Part shown: in pieces, positions 3,632 through 10,484 of the stretch
Position numbering within the stretch: the first letter of the stretch is position 1
Layout: every line of letters begins with the position of its first letter
Source of the DNA: a virus
Direction: 5' to 3' (one strand)
Length of the DNA stretch: 43,389 bases
IMG/VR virus record: IMGVR_UViG_3300010370_000068
Coordinates: 1-43,389 of that record
The notes under the pieces: model-generated
The model's input: the letters and a program-made list of their open reading frames with translations, nothing else
What the model was told of the DNA's origin: nothing
The model's database searches: none
Program-made: the position numbers and the translations under genes

Positions 3632-4444
3632 TTATCCGTAAAACCAATAATAACCTTTCCAACTATAATGCCCAGGATTACGTAGGCTTTTAATTATTCC
3701 TGTACCTTTTCCAGAACCACCTAATGCTCTCACTGCATCTATAATAGATTCATAACGGGCACCTATTTCGCCCGTTTTTTTATTAACACCAAATACTGCT
3801 TTCTTTTTAGATTTCTCTTCTAAGATCTGCCATTTATGACCATAGGCAGTACCATCTTTTCTAGCAGCAAGTAGAATGTTACTATTTTTATTTGGATCAC
3901 CTGTGATTGATAATGCAGCCATACGTGCATTCTCATAATCAGTACATATGCCAGTTTTTAAGTTCTTACCACGGATAGGAAGACCACAGTGTTTTCCATT
4001 GCCTCTGTTTTCTTTTGTAAGAATACCCCAGGGTTCTATCTTTGCTTTTGTGGTTAATGCTGTTGATATATTCTCAATATGTTCTGATGTGAGTATCTTT
4101 TGTTTTGCTTTATCGGATATTTTCTGTTTTGTTTCTTCACTGAGTATTTGATTATCGCCGCCACTTGTAGCATTATATCCTTCTGCACTTTCAAATGTAT
4201 TGTATTGTTTAATCCAATATGCTTCTTTTTCATTTAATAAACTTTCATCACATTCGTCAATTTCTTTAATCATAAAGTTGTGATTACCATACTTACGCAT
4301 TGCACGATGTATTGGTTTATCACTCATTCTCATTGCTTCTTGTATGTGTTGCTGCCACCTTTTATTCATTCCCTGAGTGGTTTGACCAACATATTTGTGT
4401 CCGTTTTGTTTATTAGTAATGAGATAAATGATTCCTTGTGCCAT
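3632..4444 (-). CDS. GIY-YIG homing endonuclease
   Basis: The only substantial minus-strand gene, 270 residues. The N-terminal nuclease domain has the GIY-like IIYLITN (5-11), the YIG-like KYVGQT (17-22), Arg29 and His33, and a Glu-rich helix with LNEKEAYWI (70-78) supplying the catalytic Glu. Residues about 95-115 (SEETKQKISDKAKQK) resemble a NUMOD3 DNA-binding element. The C-terminal half contains two copies of a NUMOD1-like motif (GENARMAA-type and ESIIDAVRALGG) each ending in an aromatic KW or YW segment. Free-standing endonucleases of this kind cleave a specific site in related phages and spread by recombination. Its stop abuts the stop of the convergent gene. Confidence 0.9.
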   Translation of the reverse strand: MAQGIIYLITNKQNGHKYVGQTTQGMNKRWQQHIQEAMRMSDKPIHRAMRKYGNHNFMIKEIDECDESLLNEKEAYWIKQYNTFESAEGYNATSGGDNQILSEETKQKISDKAKQKILTSEHIENISTALTTKAKIEPWGILTKENRGNGKHCGLPIRGKNLKTGICTDYENARMAALSITGDPNKNSNILLAARKDGTAYGHKWQILEEKSKKKAVFGVNKKTGEIGARYESIIDAVRALGGSGKGTGIIKSLRNPGHYSWKGYYWFYG

Positions 4445-4541: not shown

Positions 4542-4581
4542 ATGTTAATGTTTGATTAAATATATGTGTCTAATTTGTTGT

Positions 4582-4610
4582 ATTCTCAATAAGATAGAAT
4601 AATTGAGAAT
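4582..4610. repeat. Inverted repeat ATTCTCAAT / ATTGAGAAT
   Basis: Nine-base perfect arms at 4582-4590 and 4602-4610 with an 11-base loop. The same arm sequence forms the palindrome at 5318-5346, so the two copies bracket the iteron-bearing islet. A third half-site is at 4626-4633. It may be a protein-binding site or the trace of an insertion event. Confidence 0.6.
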
Positions 4611-4749
4611 CAATTGAGTATATTGTTGAGAATAGTTTAGAAATGCTGGATCTTATAGCAACCTTTGCCAGCGTACCATAAGACGCACAGTTTGTCAAGC
4701 CCCACGACGCGCCCAGGTGCCCAGACCCACACATAAAACGCACAAGGTC

Positions 4750-4778
4750 TTGACATTCTTATAAGTTCGTGATAAAAT
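4750..4778 (+). promoter_or_regulatory. Strong sigma-70 promoter of the iteron gene
   Basis: TTGACA (4750-4755), exactly 17 bases, TAAAAT (4773-4778). The expected transcription start near 4785 falls inside the first CTAGTCGAG word (4779-4787). A protein that binds the word would sit on the start site, so the layout is that of an operator-controlled promoter. Confidence 0.65.
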
Positions 4779-5050
4779 CTAGTCGAGACATTATACACAA
4801 GATCTAGTCGAGATATCAGCATATCTTAACAAATCTAGTCGAGATCACATATATATTGGTATGAATCTCGACGAGATCTACACTAGATCTAGATTGCATC
4901 TCGTCGAGCTTTATGCTATAATACACAAGCGTTCAACAGATCTCGACGAGCTTATGTACGACGACTACGATCTCGACTATTCTATTAGCAACGATTACAA
5001 TCTCGACGAGGACTCATATTATGAGTATAGTGTACAAGATCTCGACGAGG
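4777..5050. repeat. Array of nine CTCGACGAG-type words (iteron- or operator-like)
   Basis: CTAGTCGAG occurs at 4779-4787, 4804-4812 and 4835-4843 in the leader. Inside the following gene, CTCGACGAG occurs at 4867-4875, 4942-4950, 5002-5010 and 5041-5049, the inverted form CTCGTCGAG at 4900-4908, and a degenerate copy at 4972-4980. Most are embedded in an ATCT..AGAT context, making near-palindromes of 12-13 bases. The leader copies are not coding, so selection must act at least partly on DNA. Confidence 0.75.
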
Positions 5051-5106
5051 ATTATGCACGAGACGGGCAAGATTACGAATCACTTGCATATCGTCATTAT
5101 GCATGA
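4861..5106 (+). CDS. Acidic Tyr/Asp-rich protein carrying the repeated DNA word, 81 aa
   Basis: Reads MNLDEIYTRSRLHLVELYAI and IIHKRSTDLDELMYDDYDLD, then a Tyr/Asp/Glu-rich tail ending YRHYA. Leu-Asp-Glu (or Leu-Val-Glu) recurs five times, each time spelled with CTC and GAG codons, because each is a copy of the DNA word. The N-terminal 30 residues look like a helix. It has its own promoter with three word copies in the leader. It could encode an autoregulator, or the frame could be a by-product of a regulatory array; I favour a real gene because the reading phase is constant across copies. Confidence 0.55.
   Translation: MNLDEIYTRSRLHLVELYAIIHKRSTDLDELMYDDYDLDYSISNDYNLDEDSYYEYSVQDLDEDYARDGQDYESLAYRHYA
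4894..4922 (+). promoter_or_regulatory. Internal sigma-70-like promoter spanning an inverted word copy
   Basis: TTGCAT (4894-4899), 17 bases, TATAAT (4917-4922), inside the gene at 4861. The spacer contains CTCGTCGAG (4900-4908), so the same binding word would lie between the two boxes. It could drive the gene at 5140. Confidence 0.4.
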
Positions 5107-5139: not shown

Positions 5140-5292
5140 ATGCTAGCACAAAAGCGCATCATACAGGTAACACTCGATATAGAGTGTTATGATGATCTAG
5201 ACCTACGTGATATTAATTGGCACGAGTTATTGCAACTCGAACCAGGTGAGACTGTGCATTCTAGGGTGAAAGAATTCGATCCGTTCGATTAA
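5140..5292 (+). CDS. Small acidic hypothetical protein, 50 aa
   Basis: The frame gives MLAQKRIIQVTLDIECYDDL, then DLRDINWHELLQLEPGE and ends VKEFDPFD. The pattern RIIQVTLDIE followed by DINW-x-ELL is one I recall from small cyanophage proteins of unknown function. A seven-base perfect hairpin (AACACTC / GAGTGTT, 5169-5188) lies inside the coding sequence. No Shine-Dalgarno site; the start context is ACACCCATG, as in the cassette genes further right. Confidence 0.6.
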   Translation: MLAQKRIIQVTLDIECYDDLDLRDINWHELLQLEPGETVHSRVKEFDPFD

Positions 5293-5317
5293 TGTGCCAG
5301 TTTAGAGATTGGATCTT

Positions 5318-5346
5318 ATTCTCAATAACGAAGTCTTATTGAGAAT
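5318..5346. repeat. Inverted repeat, second copy of the ATTCTCAAT palindrome
   Basis: Perfect 11-base arms ATTCTCAATAA (5318-5328) and TTATTGAGAAT (5336-5346) around a 7-base loop. The inner nine bases of each arm equal the palindrome at 4582-4610. It may also act as a terminator for the gene at 5140, although it lacks a T-run. Confidence 0.65.
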
Positions 5347-5359
5347 GAGTACTTTAAAT

Positions 5360-5418
5360 GTGCCAATTACATAAGTGGCACAAGGGGGGTTGATATCTGC
5401 CACGGGGTGGGTTATGTT
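5360..5418 (+). promoter_or_regulatory. Dyad plus sigma-70 promoter cassette
   Basis: A dyad GTGCCA (5360-5365) / TGGCAC (5376-5381) is followed by AAGGGGGG and a promoter TTGATA (5390-5395), 17 bases, TATGTT (5413-5418). The leader to the ATG at 5445 ends GACCCCCAATG. The block AAATGTGCCAAT...CACAAGGGGGGTTG is repeated almost intact at 5633-5668. Confidence 0.6.
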
Positions 5419-5444: not shown

Positions 5445-5648
5445 ATGGTGTTTCTGTCTCTGCCGAATTATGGGTGCATCTTTACCCTTTCTCAGGAAGA
5501 TGGCAATGAATTGTATTATGCGCCGATCTACGCTGACGGTAGTGTAAACCTGCGTGAATTTGCACCCGTTGATTTAGCATCTGCTGATATGGATGAGATG
5601 GAATTGTTTGATATTCGTAATCGGTTGGTTGAAATGTGCCAATCGTAA
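5445..5648 (+). CDS. Small acidic hypothetical protein, 67 aa
   Basis: Product begins MVFLSLPNYGCIFTLSQEDG, then a beta-like stretch NELYYAPIYADGSVNLREF and an acidic helix MDEMELFDIRNRLVEMCQS. The start follows a sigma-70 promoter by 26 bases and has a C-rich leader without a Shine-Dalgarno site. Its last codons (ATG TGC CAA TCG) form the left arm of the next dyad cassette, so coding and regulatory sequence overlap. Function unknown. Confidence 0.65.
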   Translation: MVFLSLPNYGCIFTLSQEDGNELYYAPIYADGSVNLREFAPVDLASADMDEMELFDIRNRLVEMCQS

Positions 5649-5694
5649 AAGTGTCACAAGGGGGGTTGCGTTCGTGCTGCCCCCCTGATAAATT
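5636..5694 (+). promoter_or_regulatory. Second dyad-promoter cassette
   Basis: GTGCCA (5636-5641) pairs with TGTCAC (5652-5657, one mismatch), followed by AAGGGGGG, TTGCGT (5666-5671), 17 bases and TAAATT (5689-5694). It is a close relative of the cassette at 5360-5418. The leader to the ATG at 5720 is 25 bases. Confidence 0.5.
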
Positions 5695-5848: not shown

Positions 5849-5883
5849 ACCGTGTGACAGTCCACAAGGTGGCACAAGACCCC

Positions 5884-5912
5884 TTGTGCTGACCCCCACC
5901 CCGTGCCATACT
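5884..5912 (+). promoter_or_regulatory. Sigma-70-like promoter, TTGTGC-17-CATACT
   Basis: TTGTGC (5884-5889), 17 bases, CATACT (5907-5912), preceded by a TGGCAC half-site at 5872-5877. The -10 and its flank (CCGTGCCATACT) are identical to the promoter at 6473-6501. The leader ends GGGAAACCCCCAATG. Confidence 0.6.
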
Positions 5913-5937: not shown

Positions 5938-6285
5938 ATGCGTAAGATCGAACGTGAAATGAACGCCGCCATTCTGAACAATCAGAACTGGCAAAAAGAC
6001 AACACTTCCGTTACTTTCGACCCCGAAACTAATGAGTCTAAAGTGTTTCTGTTCGGCAATCACATTGCTACCGTTGGTGACAACTTCGTGCAAATCTTTG
6101 ACGGTGGTTATCAGTCTAAGACCACCAAATCGCGTCTGAATGCTATTCTCAAAGAGCACGGAATCAAGGGTGAATGTGTATTTCAACGGAACTTCAATTG
6201 GTTCGTTCACAAGTTCATCGGACAGGCAGGAACTTCTCCTGTTTACAATGAATACGAATTCAAAGATGGATTCATGTTTGCATAA
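5938..6285 (+). CDS. Conserved cyanophage hypothetical protein, 115 aa
   Basis: Starts MRKIEREMNAAILNNQNWQK and continues with beta-rich NESKVFLFGNHIATVGDN and the strong signature DGGYQSKTTKSRLNAIL. From memory this family is widespread in cyanophages and has relatives in cyanobacteria; its role is unknown. The basic helix after the GGYQ motif could contact nucleic acid. It is followed immediately by a strong terminator, so it is transcribed as a single gene. Confidence 0.75.
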   Translation: MRKIEREMNAAILNNQNWQKDNTSVTFDPETNESKVFLFGNHIATVGDNFVQIFDGGYQSKTTKSRLNAILKEHGIKGECVFQRNFNWFVHKFIGQAGTSPVYNEYEFKDGFMFA

Positions 6286-6291
6286 AGAATC

Positions 6292-6316
6292 GGGGGGCGA
6301 TTGCCTCCCTTTTTTT
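6292..6316 (+). terminator. Intrinsic terminator
   Basis: GGGGGGC (6292-6298), loop GATT, GCCTCCC (6303-6309, one G-T pair) and a run of seven T (6310-6316). It sits seven bases after the stop of the gene at 5938. Confidence 0.85.
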
Positions 6317-6472
6317 ATACTTTGTTTGTTACTATTTCAAGGCAGGTTCAGTGGCGACCGTTTGCGTCAACGGGGCGACCCTACCCCTCCTTCGTTTGTC
6401 CCCTTATTATAAGTCTGCAGGGGGAGCGAAGCGGCCGACCGTGTGCCACTTCGTGAACTGGCACCAACCCCG
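6317..6472. other. Intergenic stretch marking the rise in GC
   Basis: Between the terminator and the next promoter there is no gene with a plausible start. The stretch holds a TTATTATAAG near 6401 that could be a weak -10, a G-run and a GTGCCA/TGGCAC dyad (6442-6447 and 6459-6464). Composition rises sharply to the GC-rich block from here. Confidence 0.4.
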
Positions 6473-6501
6473 TTGCGGTGCCCCCCGTTCCGTGCCATAC
6501 T
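6473..6501 (+). promoter_or_regulatory. Sigma-70-like promoter, TTGCGG-17-CATACT
   Basis: TTGCGG (6473-6478), 17 bases, CATACT (6496-6501); 21 bases separate the -10 from the ATG at 6523. It shares CCGTGCCATACT with the promoter at 5884-5912. Confidence 0.6.
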
Positions 6502-6522
6502 ATGGGCATCAAGAGAGAACCG

Positions 6523-7428
6523 ATGCAAAACAAGCACCAAGAGCACCCCGAAGACACCATCCTCACGGGCGACCTGAGCGTGCTGGACTGGTTCGTGACC
6601 CCTGGACATTTGAGTGTAAAAATTGATGGAAGTCCTGCAATCGTATGGGGCATCGACCCCGCTTGTGGTGAGTTCTTCGTGGGCACCAAGGCAGTCTTTA
6701 ACAAGAAGAAGATTCGTATTGCTCACTCTCACGAAGAGATTGACCAACACTATGAAGGCAACGTGGCAGAGATTCTGCACGCTTGCTTTGACTACCTGCC
6801 CCGTATGGATGCCATCATTCAGGGTGATTTTATCGGGTTTGGTGGTGAGAACGAATACACTCCGAATACTATCACTTACCAGTTCGGTGATGTAGTATCT
6901 CAAGAGATCATCATTGCACCCCATACGGTATACGTTGCAGAGAGCGACCTTCGTGATGCCGTAGCGTATCCGATGCAGTATACCATCACCGATACTTCCT
7001 ACGTGAAGTTCATCAAACCTGATGCCTACATTCTGCACGGTCAAGATTCGTTCGCTGATGTAAAAGAGGTTTGTGATTTCGCCCGTCAAATGGCAACCAC
7101 TGCCACCTTTGTGACTGATAAGGAAGCGGCAAAGATCAAACAACAGATCAACGCTTGCATTCGTGCGGGTGAGCAGATTAGTGTGGAGAATGTGAATGAG
7201 TTTGATTGTGACCCTAACCTGATTCGTTTGTGGGCACTGGTGAAGTCTATCAAGGATGACTGCCTGTTCCTGTGCCGCAACTACGGTCCTGCCGCTTACA
7301 TCAACGGCAACCGTATTGATGCCGAAGGTTATGTGATGAGCAATGAGTTTGGTATGTTCAAACTGGTGAATCGTGAGGTATTCTCTCACGCTAACTTCAC
7401 CAGCGGTCGCTTCCAGTGTGCCGCCTGA
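6523..7428 (+). CDS. Nucleotidyltransferase / polynucleotide ligase-like protein, 301 aa
   Basis: The sequence HLSVKIDGSPAIVWG around Lys33 is motif I (KxDG) of the covalent nucleotidyltransferases, which include DNA and RNA ligases and capping enzymes; Lys33 would carry the AMP. Near the C-terminus, AEGYVM (Glu269, motif IV) and FKLVNREVF (Lys281, motif V-like) follow in the right order. At 301 residues it has the size of a minimal ligase or RNA-repair enzyme. Many T4-like phages encode a protein with KxDGSP of unknown substrate, so nick repair or RNA end repair are both possible. I chose the ATG at 6523 because it fits the promoter and the leader GAGAGAACCGATG. Confidence 0.7.
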   Translation: MQNKHQEHPEDTILTGDLSVLDWFVTPGHLSVKIDGSPAIVWGIDPACGEFFVGTKAVFNKKKIRIAHSHEEIDQHYEGNVAEILHACFDYLPRMDAIIQGDFIGFGGENEYTPNTITYQFGDVVSQEIIIAPHTVYVAESDLRDAVAYPMQYTITDTSYVKFIKPDAYILHGQDSFADVKEVCDFARQMATTATFVTDKEAAKIKQQINACIRAGEQISVENVNEFDCDPNLIRLWALVKSIKDDCLFLCRNYGPAAYINGNRIDAEGYVMSNEFGMFKLVNREVFSHANFTSGRFQCAA

Positions 7429-7466
7429 GGGACTGGCACACGCTGCCCCCATCCTGCCCCTCTGTG

Positions 7467-7499
7467 CCCTTATACTGATCTAAGTTCACAAGCGAACCC
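7467..7499 (+). promoter_or_regulatory. Promoter-leader cassette, copy 1
   Basis: Contains -10 TATACT (7471-7476) preceded by TGTGCCCT; no good -35. The 33-base block from CCCTTATACT to AGCGAACCC recurs at 7828-7860 with a single mismatch. It ends directly at the ATG at 7501. Confidence 0.6.
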
Positions 7500-7500
7500 A

Positions 7501-7662
7501 ATGCGCTTCGAAGTCCGTTTCCAATCCCCCTACAACCACTGTGAGTGGCGGTCGCAATGGTTCACCACCAAGGAGGAGGCAGACCGTATGGTAGACTTCT
7601 ATCGGTCCTGCGGGTCACCCTCTCACATCGCCCCCAGCAGTCTGGCACAACTGGAGCGATGA
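7501..7662 (+). CDS. Small hypothetical protein, 53 aa
   Basis: Reads MRFEVRFQSPYNHCEWRSQW, then FTTKEEADRMVDFYRSCGSP and ends SLAQLER. A strand-helix pattern typical of small domains with an FTTKEEADRM helix; I cannot assign a function. Strong GC bias at third positions. The stop shares a base with the next ATG (TGATG), making this the only coupled pair in the GC-rich block. Confidence 0.6.
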   Translation: MRFEVRFQSPYNHCEWRSQWFTTKEEADRMVDFYRSCGSPSHIAPSSLAQLER

Positions 7663-7826
7663 TGCGAACCCTGACCCGTTCACGCACCCCTGAGTTTCAC
7701 CGCGCCACGATGTTCCGCCTCCTGATCGCTGCCCTGCTGCTGTGGTTACTCTGGGAACCGATCCGCCCCGTGCGGACTGTGACAGCAGAGGCACTGTACA
7801 CCGCAGGCGACCTGATCGCCCGCTGA
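7662..7826 (+). CDS. Small membrane protein, 54 aa
   Basis: An Arg-rich N-terminus (MRTLTRSRTPEFHRATMF) is followed by a hydrophobic span RLLIAALLLWLLWEPI and a polar tail TAEALYTAGDLIAR. The topology is that of a single-pass inner-membrane protein with a cytoplasmic N-terminus. The ATG overlapping the upstream stop is preferred over the earlier in-frame start at 7545. Unknown function. Confidence 0.55.
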   Translation: MRTLTRSRTPEFHRATMFRLLIAALLLWLLWEPIRPVRTVTAEALYTAGDLIAR

Positions 7827-7827
7827 C

Positions 7828-7860
7828 CCCTTATACTGATCTCAGTTCACAAGCGAACCC
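7828..7860 (+). promoter_or_regulatory. Promoter-leader cassette, copy 2
   Basis: TATACT at 7832-7837 with the same 33-base block as 7467-7499 (one mismatch, A to C). It begins immediately after the stop codon of the gene at 7662. Near-identity of a non-coding 33-mer points to recent duplication or gene conversion. Confidence 0.6.
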
Positions 7861-7863
7861 CAA

Positions 7864-8130
7864 ATGGCAACCGCAACCCTCACTCACCAAACCGACCTGC
7901 TGGATGTTACCTACAACGGTTGGACTAACTACGAAACCTGGAATGTGGTGCTCTGGATTGAGAATGATGAGAGCATCTACAACTTCATTCAGGAGAATGA
8001 TGTCTGCTGCTATGAAGAACTGCTGGAAGCATTCTATAAGTTCGGCACCAACGAAACGCCTGACGGTGTGAAGTGGAATGACCCTAAGATCAACCGTGCC
8101 GAAATCAACGGCGACGTGTTCGATTTCTGA
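7864..8130 (+). CDS. NGWTNYETWNV-family protein, 88 aa
   Basis: The motif YNGWTNYETWNVVLWIENDE (residues 17-36) marks a family common in phages and cyanobacteria and listed, as I recall, as DUF7249; no function is known. The rest is helical and acidic and ends EINGDVFDF. It has its own promoter-leader cassette. Two adjacent Cys (CCYEELL) are unusual. Confidence 0.7.
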   Translation: MATATLTHQTDLLDVTYNGWTNYETWNVVLWIENDESIYNFIQENDVCCYEELLEAFYKFGTNETPDGVKWNDPKINRAEINGDVFDF

Positions 8131-8140
8131 ATGTGTGACC

Positions 8141-8176
8141 TGAGCAAGTCCTAAAACTGCTCACAAACTTTACACT
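8141..8176 (+). promoter_or_regulatory. Dyad and -10 box
   Basis: TGAGCA (8141-8146) / TGCTCA (8158-8163) form a six-base dyad just upstream of TACACT (8171-8176). The ATG of the next gene is 12 bases later, so the leader is very short. Confidence 0.35.
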
Positions 8177-8188
8177 CTCTGAATTCAA

Positions 8189-8356
8189 ATGACCCGCGAC
8201 CTTGCCCTGTCCCTGCTCCGTCAAGGCAGCAACGGCGACAGCATTCTGCAGATCCTGGATACTATCACCGACGACATTGAGCAGGCAGGCATCGCTGAAT
8301 GCGCCGCCCATTATACCGCCATCAGCGCCCCGACCGCCGAACCCATCCAGTTCTGA
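8189..8356 (+). CDS. Small helical hypothetical protein, 55 aa
   Basis: MTRDLALSLLRQGSNGDSIL, then QILDTITDDIEQAGIAECAA, ending AEPIQF. The pattern LALSLLRQG-x-x-G-x-x-ILQILD is familiar from small cyanophage and cyanobacterial proteins; the first half could be a small helix-turn-helix-like fold, but that is a guess. It is followed by a terminator hairpin, so it is a single-gene unit. Confidence 0.6.
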   Translation: MTRDLALSLLRQGSNGDSILQILDTITDDIEQAGIAECAAHYTAISAPTAEPIQF

Positions 8357-8369
8357 CACTGACCACCCG

Positions 8370-8402
8370 CCCCCCACGGTTCGCCGCTGGGGGGTTTATA
8401 CT
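8370..8402 (+). terminator. UUCG-loop hairpin fused to the next -10 box
   Basis: CCCCCCA (8370-8376) pairs with TGGGGGG (8388-8394), CGG (8377-8379) with CCG (8384-8386) around a TTCG tetraloop; one bulged C. It is followed by TTT (8395-8397), whose last T begins TATACT (8397-8402), the -10 box for the gene at 8429. Terminator and promoter are thus physically fused. Confidence 0.65.
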
Positions 8403-8428
8403 ATGGGGACAGTCAACCAAACGAACCG

Positions 8429-8590
8429 ATGACCCGCTACGATGTGATCTGCCCCTCCGCCCCCTGGGAGAACCACACCTGTGATGAGGACCGTGCCTGG
8501 GATCTGTGCTTCTCTCTGTCGGAGGAGTACGGGTATGCTGAGGTCCGCCACAATGGGGTGGTGATCGGAGACTACACCAACGGGCAGTGA
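8429..8590 (+). CDS. Small hypothetical protein, 53 aa
   Basis: MTRYDVICPSAPWENHTCDE, DRAWDLCFSLSEEYGYAEVR, then HNGVVIGDYTNGQ. Three Cys in a short chain and a beta-alpha-beta pattern. The start shows the leader AAACGAACCGATG without a Shine-Dalgarno site. The TGA stop lies in the GTGACC -35 box of the next gene. No family recognised. Confidence 0.6.
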   Translation: MTRYDVICPSAPWENHTCDEDRAWDLCFSLSEEYGYAEVRHNGVVIGDYTNGQ

Positions 8591-8614
8591 CCCCTGCCCC
8601 CGACCTGCTACAAT
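8587..8614 (+). promoter_or_regulatory. Promoter whose -35 box contains the upstream stop codon
   Basis: GTGACC (8587-8592), 16 bases, TACAAT (8609-8614). The TGA at 8588-8590 is the stop of the preceding gene. The ATG at 8637 follows after 22 bases. Confidence 0.6.
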
Positions 8615-8636
8615 ACTCTCAACCGCAACGGACCCG

Positions 8637-8825
8637 ATGAACGCCACCTTCTCCGATATTCTGTGGAACTGCACCAACCCCGACAATGGCACCATCCCCT
8701 GGAGCACCGCCTGCCAGGCAGCGAAGGAGCACGGTCTCTGGGATGACTTCCGCACGGAGTACGGGGTGACCGCCAAATTCGGACCCGTAGACACTGGCGA
8801 ATTTTTGGTGTGGTTGGGGTATTGA
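8637..8825 (+). CDS. Conserved small protein, 62 aa
   Basis: MNATFSDILWNCTNPDNGTI, PWSTACQAAKEHGLWDDFRT, ending VDTGEFLVWLGY. I recall this pattern (ILWNCTNPDxGTIPWSTA and the C-terminal GEFLVWLGY) as a small family shared by cyanophages, of unknown function. The helix AAKEHGLWDDF resembles the recognition helix region of small DNA-binding folds but no clear domain is visible. The stop is part of the next TTGACC. Confidence 0.65.
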   Translation: MNATFSDILWNCTNPDNGTIPWSTACQAAKEHGLWDDFRTEYGVTAKFGPVDTGEFLVWLGY

Positions 8826-8851
8826 CCCCTGCCCCCCTGACCCTGTACAAT
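8822..8851 (+). promoter_or_regulatory. Promoter TTGACC-18-TACAAT with embedded stop codon
   Basis: TTGACC (8822-8827) includes the upstream TGA (8823-8825). TACAAT is at 8846-8851 and the ATG at 8876, 24 bases further. Confidence 0.65.
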
Positions 8852-8875
8852 TCTCTCAGTTCACCACCCGACCCG

Positions 8876-9049
8876 ATGACCCGCTTCCCCCTGGCAATGT
8901 GCTCTGACCTGGAGACCCGTCAAATCAAGTGGATCTCCCGTGCTGATCAACTGAAGAACGGTTCGCGCCCTGCCGCCTACGTTCACTGGGGTGTGCCCGC
9001 CGTCGCCATCGCCGCCCAGTATTCTGAGGCGTTCGCTGGGCGGGGGTGA
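8876..9049 (+). CDS. Small hypothetical protein, 57 aa
   Basis: MTRFPLAMCSDLETRQIKWI, SRADQLKNGSRPAAYVHWGV, ending YSEAFAGRG. Arg/Ala-rich and GC-biased. It begins MTR like two of its neighbours (8189 and 8429), and the leader is CCACCCGACCCGATG. No known motif. The TGA stop lies within the next GTGACC. Confidence 0.55.
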   Translation: MTRFPLAMCSDLETRQIKWISRADQLKNGSRPAAYVHWGVPAVAIAAQYSEAFAGRG

Positions 9050-9073
9050 CCCTCCCCCCGTTCGTGCTACAAT
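9046..9073 (+). promoter_or_regulatory. Promoter GTGACC-16-TACAAT with embedded stop codon
   Basis: GTGACC (9046-9051) contains the TGA (9047-9049) that ends the preceding gene. TACAAT is at 9068-9073, 23 bases before the ATG at 9097. Confidence 0.6.
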
Positions 9074-9096
9074 TCATTCGTTCGCAACCGACACCG

Positions 9097-9306
9097 ATGA
9101 CCACCCTCCCCACGATGACCGCCGCCGAACTCAACGCCGCCATCGCGTCGGGTGCTATGCGTCTGACCCGCCTGCCCCGCCGTGGTCCCCGTAAGGGTGA
9201 GGCAACCGCTAACCGCGTTGGTGGGTCGGGCACCGCTTGGCGCCCTGCTGTGTCTGCTGGTCACGCCAACCGCCACATCCGCAGCGGGTCTCCTGCCCTG
9301 CGCTGA
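9097..9306 (+). CDS. Small very basic protein, 69 aa
   Basis: MTTLPTMTAAELNAAIASGA is followed by an Arg/Gly/Ala-rich stretch (RLTRLPRRGPRKGEATANRV) and a tail rich in His, Arg and Ser. The positive charge suggests RNA or DNA binding. A second ATG at 9115 is possible. The gene is the last of the GC-rich block and the richest in GC; no family recognised. Confidence 0.5.
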   Translation: MTTLPTMTAAELNAAIASGAMRLTRLPRRGPRKGEATANRVGGSGTAWRPAVSAGHANRHIRSGSPALR

Positions 9307-9318
9307 GGTGTTCGTGGG

Positions 9319-9353
9319 GGGGCACTGCATTCGTTCGTGACCGACAGTGCCCC
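9319..9353 (+). terminator. GC-rich hairpin closing the cassette block
   Basis: GGGGCACTG (9319-9327) and CAGTGCCCC (9345-9353) are perfect nine-base arms around a 17-base loop, 13 bases after the stop at 9306. No T-run follows, so Rho-independent termination is not certain. GC falls sharply soon after (from about 9385). Confidence 0.5.
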
Positions 9354-9432
9354 GCCGTCGCGCCGTTAGGGGCGCGGGCGCGTGATATAAAAACGCACCA
9401 CTACCCTAAGCTATAAACGACCCAGATCGACC

Positions 9433-9440
9433 TCTAAATA
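9433..9440 (+). promoter_or_regulatory. Candidate late promoter (TCTAAATA)
   Basis: One mismatch to the NATAAATA late pattern, 64 bases upstream of the ATG at 9505. A TATAAATT at 9471-9478 is an alternative. It is the first late-type element of the structural region. Confidence 0.35.
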
Positions 9441-9504
9441 TCTCTCTGTTTCAAAAATTCCGGAAGAATATATAAATTTGAAAAAGGTCAATGATAATAC
9501 AAAG

Positions 9505-9678
9505 ATGAAAAAAAATTCCGGTGATATTTTTGAGTCCCTACAAGTCGATCCAATTACGGGCGATTATTACTTGATTATACCTGAACAAATTGTCAATGAA
9601 CTTTCTTGGTATGAAGACACAGAAATTCAAATAAACATAGAGGGTAGTGAAGTGGTTCTGTCAGAAAGGGTTAATTGA
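9505..9678 (+). CDS. AbrB/MazE-like small DNA-binding protein, 57 aa
   Basis: The stretch VDPITGDYYLIIPEQIVNEL, then WYEDTEIQINIEGSEVVLSE follows the swapped-hairpin AbrB/SpoVT fold: strand, IP-x-x-I turn, short helix, and two strands ending in a VVLSE-like edge. Proteins of this type dimerise and bind DNA, as antitoxins or transition-state regulators. I chose the ATG at 9505; a TTG at 9478 would add nine residues. No toxin gene is next to it. The TGA stop lies inside a TTGACA promoter box for the next gene. Confidence 0.6.
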   Translation: MKKNSGDIFESLQVDPITGDYYLIIPEQIVNELSWYEDTEIQINIEGSEVVLSERVN

Positions 9679-9703
9679 CAGACGATACATAATAGAGTAT
9701 GAT
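9675..9703 (+). promoter_or_regulatory. Strong sigma-70 promoter with embedded stop codon
   Basis: TTGACA (9675-9680), 17 bases, TATGAT (9698-9703). The TGA at 9676-9678 ends the AbrB-like gene. It would drive the glycosyltransferase gene at 9726. Confidence 0.65.
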
Positions 9704-9725
9704 ACTGAAGTAAACAACTTATCTT

Positions 9726-10484
9726 ATGGCTAAAGGATTTACAGTAAAAGCAAAAGCGCCAGTAACAACTTCAAATGAACCAGAATGGGACTTTGATCTG
9801 GCAAGAGAAATGGTACGTGGCAAATCAATTGTATTTTGCCTACCTGGTAGAGGTGTATCTTACACATACTTGAAGAACTTTGTACAACTTTGTTTTGACC
9901 TTGTACAAGCGGGAGCGAGCATTCAAATCTCGCAGGATTATTCATCAATGGTAAACTTTGCAAGATGCAAATGTTTAGGTGCGAATGTACTGCGTGGACC
10001 TGATCAGATTCCCTGGGACGGCAAACTTAAGTATGATTGGCAACTTTGGATTGATTCTGATATTGTTTTCAATACTGAAAAGTTTTGGCAATTGATTTTA
10101 ATGGACAAAGATATCGCAGCGGGATGGTATGCAACTGAAGATGGTCACACGACATCAGTTGCTCATTGGTTAGAAGAAGACGATTTCAGAAATAATGGTG
10201 GAGTGATGAATCATGAAACCGTTGAAAGTATCTCAAAGCGTCGAAAGCCTTTTACAGTTGATTATACTGGGTTTGGTTGGCTTCTGATTAAGCACGGTGT
10301 ATTTGAGCATTCTGAAATGAAGTATCCTTGGTTTGCACCAAAGATGCAAGTCTTTGAATCTGGTGAAGTACAAGATATGTGCGGCGAAGACGTATCATTC
10401 TGTTTGGATGCTAAAGAAGCAGGATTTGAAATCTGGTGCGATCCTCGCGTAAGAGTTGGGCACGAGAAATCAAGAATTATCTGA
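9726..10484 (+). CDS. GT-A type glycosyltransferase-like protein, 252 aa
   Basis: The segment QLWIDSDIVF puts a DxD motif at residues 110-112, the metal/nucleotide-sugar site of GT-A fold enzymes. Further on, YTGFGWLLIKHGVFE (180-194) and CGEDVSFCLDAKEAGFEIW (219-237) followed by DPRVRVGHE (239-247) match the acceptor side and catalytic-base region of family-2-like glycosyltransferases. An N-terminal stretch of about 30 residues (MAKGFTVKAKAPV) is basic and flexible. Similar proteins are common in cyanophages; substrate unknown, perhaps modification of virion proteins or host surface sugars. It has a strong sigma-70 promoter. Confidence 0.75.
   Translation: MAKGFTVKAKAPVTTSNEPEWDFDLAREMVRGKSIVFCLPGRGVSYTYLKNFVQLCFDLVQAGASIQISQDYSSMVNFARCKCLGANVLRGPDQIPWDGKLKYDWQLWIDSDIVFNTEKFWQLILMDKDIAAGWYATEDGHTTSVAHWLEEDDFRNNGGVMNHETVESISKRRKPFTVDYTGFGWLLIKHGVFEHSEMKYPWFAPKMQVFESGEVQDMCGEDVSFCLDAKEAGFEIWCDPRVRVGHEKSRII

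Follow-up and report, generated by a model that had tools for sequence, protein, structure and literature searches.

What is the role of a short DNA word that first appears at a promoter, recurs along the leader and continues inside the small gene that follows? The question is raised by the IMG/VR record IMGVR_UViG_3300010370_000068, analyzed here over its full 43,389 bases (the window), in which nine copies of a 9-base word lie close together and had been read, in an initial annotation made from the sequence alone, as an operator or iteron array. We compared this locus with its relatives, thinned by k-mer overlap to 44 lineages and measured from the start codon of the small gene ORF1. Overall, the results point, with a probability of roughly 0.6, to a multi-site operator in which the words are putative binding sites for a dimeric DNA-binding regulator of sigma70-type promoters.

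The word array and the gene it enters

The array, its two promoters and the two genes behind them are laid out in the window as follows; LDE stands for Leu-Asp-Glu, and negative and positive positions are counted from the start of ORF1.

4750..4778, plus strand: promoter P1, with TTGACA at 4750-4755, 17 bp, TAAAAT at 4773-4778 and TG before the -10 box
4779..4787, no strand: word 1, CTAGTCGAG, abutting the -10 box of P1 and covering the expected start site
4804..4812, no strand: word 2, CTAGTCGAG, in the leader
4835..4843, no strand: word 3, CTAGTCGAG, in the leader; the zone from -105 to -139 holds the word 27 times in the 44 lineages
4867..4875, no strand: word 4, CTCGACGAG, in the leader, with a full 13-bp palindrome at 4865-4877; position (-86/87) occupied in 42 of 44 lineages
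4894..4922, plus strand: promoter P3, with TTGCAT at 4894-4899, a 17-bp spacer and TATAAT at 4917-4922; arrangement shared by nearly all lineages
4900..4908, no strand: word 5, CTCGTCGAG, at the start of the P3 spacer; position (-53/54) occupied in 42 of 44 lineages
4942..4950, no strand: word 6, CTCGACGAG, 3 nt 5' of the start codon (-12); kept in 43 of 44 lineages
4954..5106, plus strand: ORF1, an acidic small protein of 50 aa (MYDDYDLDY...YESLAYRHYA), delimited by comparison across lineages
4972..4980, no strand: word 7, degenerate, CTCGACTAT, coding LDY
5002..5010, no strand: word 8, CTCGACGAG, coding LDE; 31 of 44 lineages have a word between +45 and +57
5041..5049, no strand: word 9, CTCGACGAG, coding LDE; 34 of 44 lineages have a word between +70 and +99, in every case CTCGACGAG
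5140..5292, plus strand: ORF2, 50 aa, second gene of the ORF1-ORF2 unit, phrog_12516 (function unknown)

All nine words lie where the initial annotation had placed them, and the exact form CTCGWCGAG occurs at no other site in the window. When one mismatch to CTCGACGAG was allowed, 14 matches were found on both strands, 13 of them inside the array, compared with a mean of 1.55 and a maximum of 6 in 100 dinucleotide shuffles of the window. Searches blind to the word gave similar results: the best 9-mer within 340 bp reached 5 copies, against a maximum of 3 across 1000 dinucleotide shuffles, and when the window and seven cyanophage regions were scanned for clustered palindromes, the single output was CTCGNCGAG, in the window and in phage S-SRM01.

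Pooled over 143 non-redundant arrays, the word is flanked outward by A (0.66) and then T (0.76), so that the extended site is the 13-bp palindrome ATCTCG-W-CGAGAT, with CGAGAT as its half-site. Because the extended site is palindromic, the copy at 4900, described initially as inverted, does not differ in kind from the others: only its centre is flipped. Variants in which one half is weak are as frequent in one orientation as in the other (62 and 60), which, together with the near-palindrome, is what is expected of a site for a DNA-binding dimer.

The initial annotation had assigned the last six words to an 81-codon gene starting at 4861, a gene model that the relatives do not bear out. An upstream in-frame ATG of any kind is present in just 5 of the 44 lineages, and, relative to the gene, the ATGAATCTC site upstream is in frame 0 in 10 lineages, in frame 1 in 4 and in frame 2 in 7. 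Judged from these reading frames, the gene very probably starts at 4954 and has 50 codons, the 81-codon frame being an accident of the window genome. The copies at 4867, 4900 and 4942 therefore belong to the leader, and only those at 4972, 5002 and 5041 are coding. The constant phase reported for the copies holds in the window, but in relatives the upstream copies are out of phase.

Conservation of the word across lineages

We next asked whether the coding copies are kept for the peptide or for the DNA. LDE in ORF1 is coded by CTCGACGAG 64 of 74 times, compared with 0 of 74 times in the other open frames of S-SRM01, S-SKS1 and contig G002, and with 0.33-0.55% expected from codon use. Because of this difference, codon choice indicates that selection is on the DNA and not on the peptide. 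Leader copies are as constant as coding copies, and in one lineage (L147) the flank reads AG instead of AT in leader and coding copies alike, the coding copy there changing Asp to Glu. The opposite view, that the protein needs a repeated Leu-Asp-Glu and the leader copies are remnants, would suit the fact that copies within ORF1 share one frame and mostly encode LDE. It is contradicted by the codon comparison, by the -12 leader copy with its near-invariance, and by further arrays in relatives that lie largely outside genes; we reject it as very improbable. The initial annotation had likewise held that the DNA rather than the peptide is maintained, and we looked in the homologues for the two things that would speak against this. 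Neither was seen: the same LDE codons are kept at the frequency given above, and leader copies are present, before the ATG in 43 and at the spacer position in 42 of 44 lineages. The operator or iteron type of reading is thus upheld to the extent that the word is conserved at the DNA level across promoter, leader and coding sequence.

The array is also widely distributed: many cyanophages, P-SSM2 among them, have 4-11 words over the promoters, the leader and the early codons of the small acidic gene. The locus is similar to ones in S-SRM01 (76% identity), S-T4 and S-SKS1, all of which have words 5' of the homologous small gene, and S-SRM01 and S-T4 have them within the gene as well; the same module is found in the marine Prochlorococcus phage P-SSM2 at 66.03-66.17 kb, over PSSM2_098. 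More than 100 IMG/VR contigs have the array 5' of a homologous gene, and a scan of viral_contigs with a three-word pattern retrieved at least 120 stretches. Relatives of ORF2 are encoded at 279 places, and nearly all of the loci retrieved from among these, given enough upstream DNA, carry 3-9 words 5' of ORF2 and few or none in the rest of the sequence, which extended to as much as 10 kb; one 205-kb contig has 11 words, 10 of them in a 2-kb stretch. We count this confinement to one place per genome as support for an operator. No word cluster was seen in S-CRM01, S-CAM7, Syn9, S-B43 or DSL-LC03, and a palindrome scan of the ACG-2014f region showed no array.

Several records deserve separate mention. 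Two array-bearing contigs in genome_contigs (L315 and L319) are filed as Rhodobacteraceae and Flavobacteriales metagenome-assembled genomes and are probably misbinned cyanophage DNA. The S-T4 record (NC_048049.1) holds the array twice, at 2715-2933 and 174284-174502, exactly 171,569 bp apart, a long terminal duplication in the record that may be an assembly overlap. In marine contigs (L332-L340), direct half-site repeats, ACGAGAT, stand 5' of the -35 box of a word-bearing promoter, and S-SKS1 has directly repeated ACGAGAT half-sites around and within the small gene.

Promoters, leader and a proposed regulator

The words keep a fixed geometry to promoter elements and to the start codon. As the initial annotation had predicted, the first copy coincides with the expected start site of P1, and a TTGACA-17-TAnAAT promoter with a word immediately 3', on the expected start site, is present in 18 of 44 lineages. 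The claim that another word lies between the boxes of an internal promoter is right as to the word at 4900, but the boxes are better read as those of P3. In nearly all of the 42 lineages that have it, the -54 word is preceded by TTGCAT or a close variant and lies inside a 17-18-bp spacer to TAYAMT, and in P-SSM2 this region reads TTGACA-AT-CTCGACTAG-ATCTGG-TATAAT. Across lineages the nearest leader word ends 2-6 nt 5' of the start codon, and about half of them have extra words at -105 to -139 and -140 to -160. When loci were retrieved by promoter-plus-word patterns alone, 54 of 55 proved to have further words close by (median, 5). A repeated palindromic site overlapping promoter elements, as is typical of repressor operators, is what we find here.

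These positions suggest how the array may work. The words would be double-stranded DNA sites, with CGAGAT as half-site, for a sequence-specific, probably dimeric regulator, and the operator would span two host-type sigma70 promoters and the start of the ORF1-ORF2 unit. An occupied word would block P1 at its start site and P3 in the spacer between its -35 and -10 boxes, and the downstream sites that run into the gene may add cooperative binding or a roadblock. The outcome would be a strong early promoter that is shut down or timed during infection, and, in those related genomes where one or two further small genes a few kilobases off have arrays in their leaders, these would be co-regulated. 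We infer protein binding, repression rather than activation, and early timing from this arrangement.

The leader could instead act as RNA, either through pairing of its words (-54 with -12), which would mask the ribosome site of long transcripts, or as the target of an RNA-binding protein. Its fold is better than those of all 200 shuffles (z = -4.06), and the minimum-energy structure pairs words 5 and 6; moreover, the word just 5' of the start codon hardly varies, arrays B and C of related genomes stand in leaders with no clear promoter, and the marine contigs and S-SKS1 have half-sites in one orientation. However, palindromic words always fold well, so the z-score is not independent evidence, and word 1, which overlaps the P1 start and is only partly transcribed from P1, is nevertheless conserved. 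In 17 of 42 lineages the -54 word lacks perfect complementarity to the near-invariant -12 word, the covariation between -87 and -54 is marginal (8.57 versus 8.44 pairs of 9; shuffle P 0.02, uncorrected for relatedness), and an Rfam search gave no match. Taken together, we consider an RNA element unlikely.

A structural DNA site, whether centromere-like or for condensation, packaging or another non-transcriptional nucleoprotein array, would account for localized clusters of spaced palindromes that are partly coding and partly away from promoters. It leaves the fixed relation to the -10 boxes, the promoter spacer and the start codon unexplained, and we regard it as improbable. No ParA/ParB match to Pfam was found among the proteins scanned around the array, although no search dedicated to these families was made.

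Some genomes have two or three arrays within about 6 kb, adjoining small leader genes (three within 5.4 kb in S-SRM01). Most of the 143 arrays adjoin ORF1/ORF2. Among the rest, some separate a gene that ends in PTLDEIQF from one that begins with MQTAFVTPISKK, some come after a gene resembling ArdA (PHROG anti-restriction protein, E = 2.6e-13), and some precede a gene MHNN..INSIGFTIKYQTPYNNCEWRTQSFTT. The window retains homologues, recognized by eye, of the MHNN..INSIGFTIKYQTPYNNCEWRTQSFTT gene (7501-7662) and of the PTLDEIQF gene (8189-8356).

A number of observations weigh against an operator. The window has no arrays at the two homologues just named; it has lost them, and so those arrays are not essential everywhere. 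In relatives, no sigma70 promoter is obvious at the further arrays (B and C contexts). The number of words per array varies from 3 to 11 and their spacing varies too, with peaks near 17, 24, 32 and 40-42 that are not cleanly 10.5-periodic and come from non-independent lineages, for which reasons helical phasing was dropped as proof. To these are added the good folding of the leader as RNA and a search for the binder with HTH_3 and RHH_1 that gave nothing above cut-off and one sub-threshold HTH_3 match in P-SSM2.

What, then, might bind an operator of this kind? No array was found in the cyanobacterial genomes scanned, a scan that covered arrays and not single host sites; the regulator is therefore most likely phage-encoded, and a host regulator is disfavored. 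The initial annotation had proposed that the array may be bound by the product of its own gene. That is unlikely from the charge of the ORF1 product, which has 16 Asp/Glu and 2 Arg in 50 residues, as read from the sequence, and has no Pfam match. Phylogenetic profiling of array-bearing against control genomes yielded many shared small proteins and no clear regulator. One small protein is listed as a weak candidate:

9478..9678, plus strand: MazE/AbrB-like small protein; 10 of 17 family members match PF04014 (best E, 1.5e-4)

It is encoded ∼4.4 kb downstream of the array and is present in 4 of 4 array-bearing comparison genomes and 1 of 4 controls. It is kept as no stronger a candidate because it is poor in basic residues and occurs without the array in ACG-2014f, at least in the region covered by the palindrome scan.

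Around the array, a GIY-YIG homing endonuclease gene (3632-4444, minus strand) adjoins it in the window, and HNH genes adjoin the arrays in S-SRM01. Inverted copies ATTCTCAATAA/TTATTGAGAAT flank the array region at 4581-4634 and 5317-5346. An intergenic element, TGTGCCA...TGGCACAAGG, recurs between small genes at 5291-5390, 5640-5690 and 5850-5900, and similar elements are found in S-SRM01, P-SSM2 and ACG-2014f. Positions 6000-10000 form a block of 49-58% GC within phage sequence of 28-40% GC and contain the small genes whose relatives bear further arrays that are absent from the window.

Origins, stoperators and operators compared

Cyanomyoviruses do not have the T4 genes motA and asiA, and the timing of their early and middle transcription is unsettled (PMC2984593). 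A wider proposal, which we advance tentatively and with some doubt, is that a large lytic T4-like cyanophage group without AsiA/MotA has a new regulator-operator circuit, in which a phage protein acting on CGAGAT half-sites in up to three leader arrays would time early genes, and operators within coding DNA would dictate acidic Leu-Asp-Glu repeats. In the literature searched, of which subscription coverage was partial so that absence is not proof, we found no description of the array and no paper in which the word occurs alongside "cyanophage"; nor are such repeats mentioned in the S-SRM01 genome paper, as judged by a term search. Operator and iteron arrays are already known as a kind; what is new is their occurrence in T4-like cyanophages and their run through coding sequence. 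The locus offers a clear natural example, seen in many lineages, in which putative DNA-binding sites determine codons and sometimes amino acids. The array over host-type promoters, which the model phage P-SSM2 shares, provides a DNA fragment for capturing the regulator, and promoters that can be assayed.

The closest positional analogue is T4 oriE, which likewise has an early-mode promoter, repeats and two small genes near the baseplate gene cluster. This raises the possibility that the array is an iteron-type replication origin working as oriE does, an initiator binding the words and an early transcript priming replication. The agreement is in architecture and position: repeats and small genes accompany an early-mode promoter in the neighborhood of gene 6, and the cyanophage arrays lie a few kilobases upstream of gp25/gp6. 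However, GC skew neither reverses nor reaches a minimum at the arrays of S-SRM01, S-SKS1 and G002, such a shift being reported for several, not all, T4 origins; the words hold their place relative to promoter boxes and start codon; in some genomes there are as many as three arrays, with a different small gene behind each; and RepEA/RepEB are without similarity to ORF1/ORF2. The role of the oriE repeats is itself unproven, and these repeats are not palindromic words but follow the coding repeats of gene 5, sharing their 24-bp period (L324:5403-5570; T4 79.40-79.57 kb), so that peptide-level selection could explain those iterons. We therefore think an origin rather unlikely, if somewhat less so than an RNA element.

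Codons are likewise constrained where lambda ori or plasmid iterons lie inside a coding gene, their protein-binding repeats being part of its reading frame. Around the cyanophage repeats, in contrast, no initiator gene was recognized, and the words overlap promoter boxes. The stoperators of Cluster A mycobacteriophages are similar in that a short repressor site is repeated in and around genes besides promoters. Stoperators, however, are asymmetric 13-bp sites, spread genome-wide and mainly in one orientation (PMC6550527), whereas the cyanophage sites are palindromic and confined to one small region, and do not qualify as stoperators. Compared with lambda OL/OR, the cyanophage array belongs to lytic T4-like phages in which no repressor gene was recognized, has more sites and enters coding sequence; like OL/OR, it sets several near-palindromic sites over the -10 box, the spacer and the start region of early promoters.
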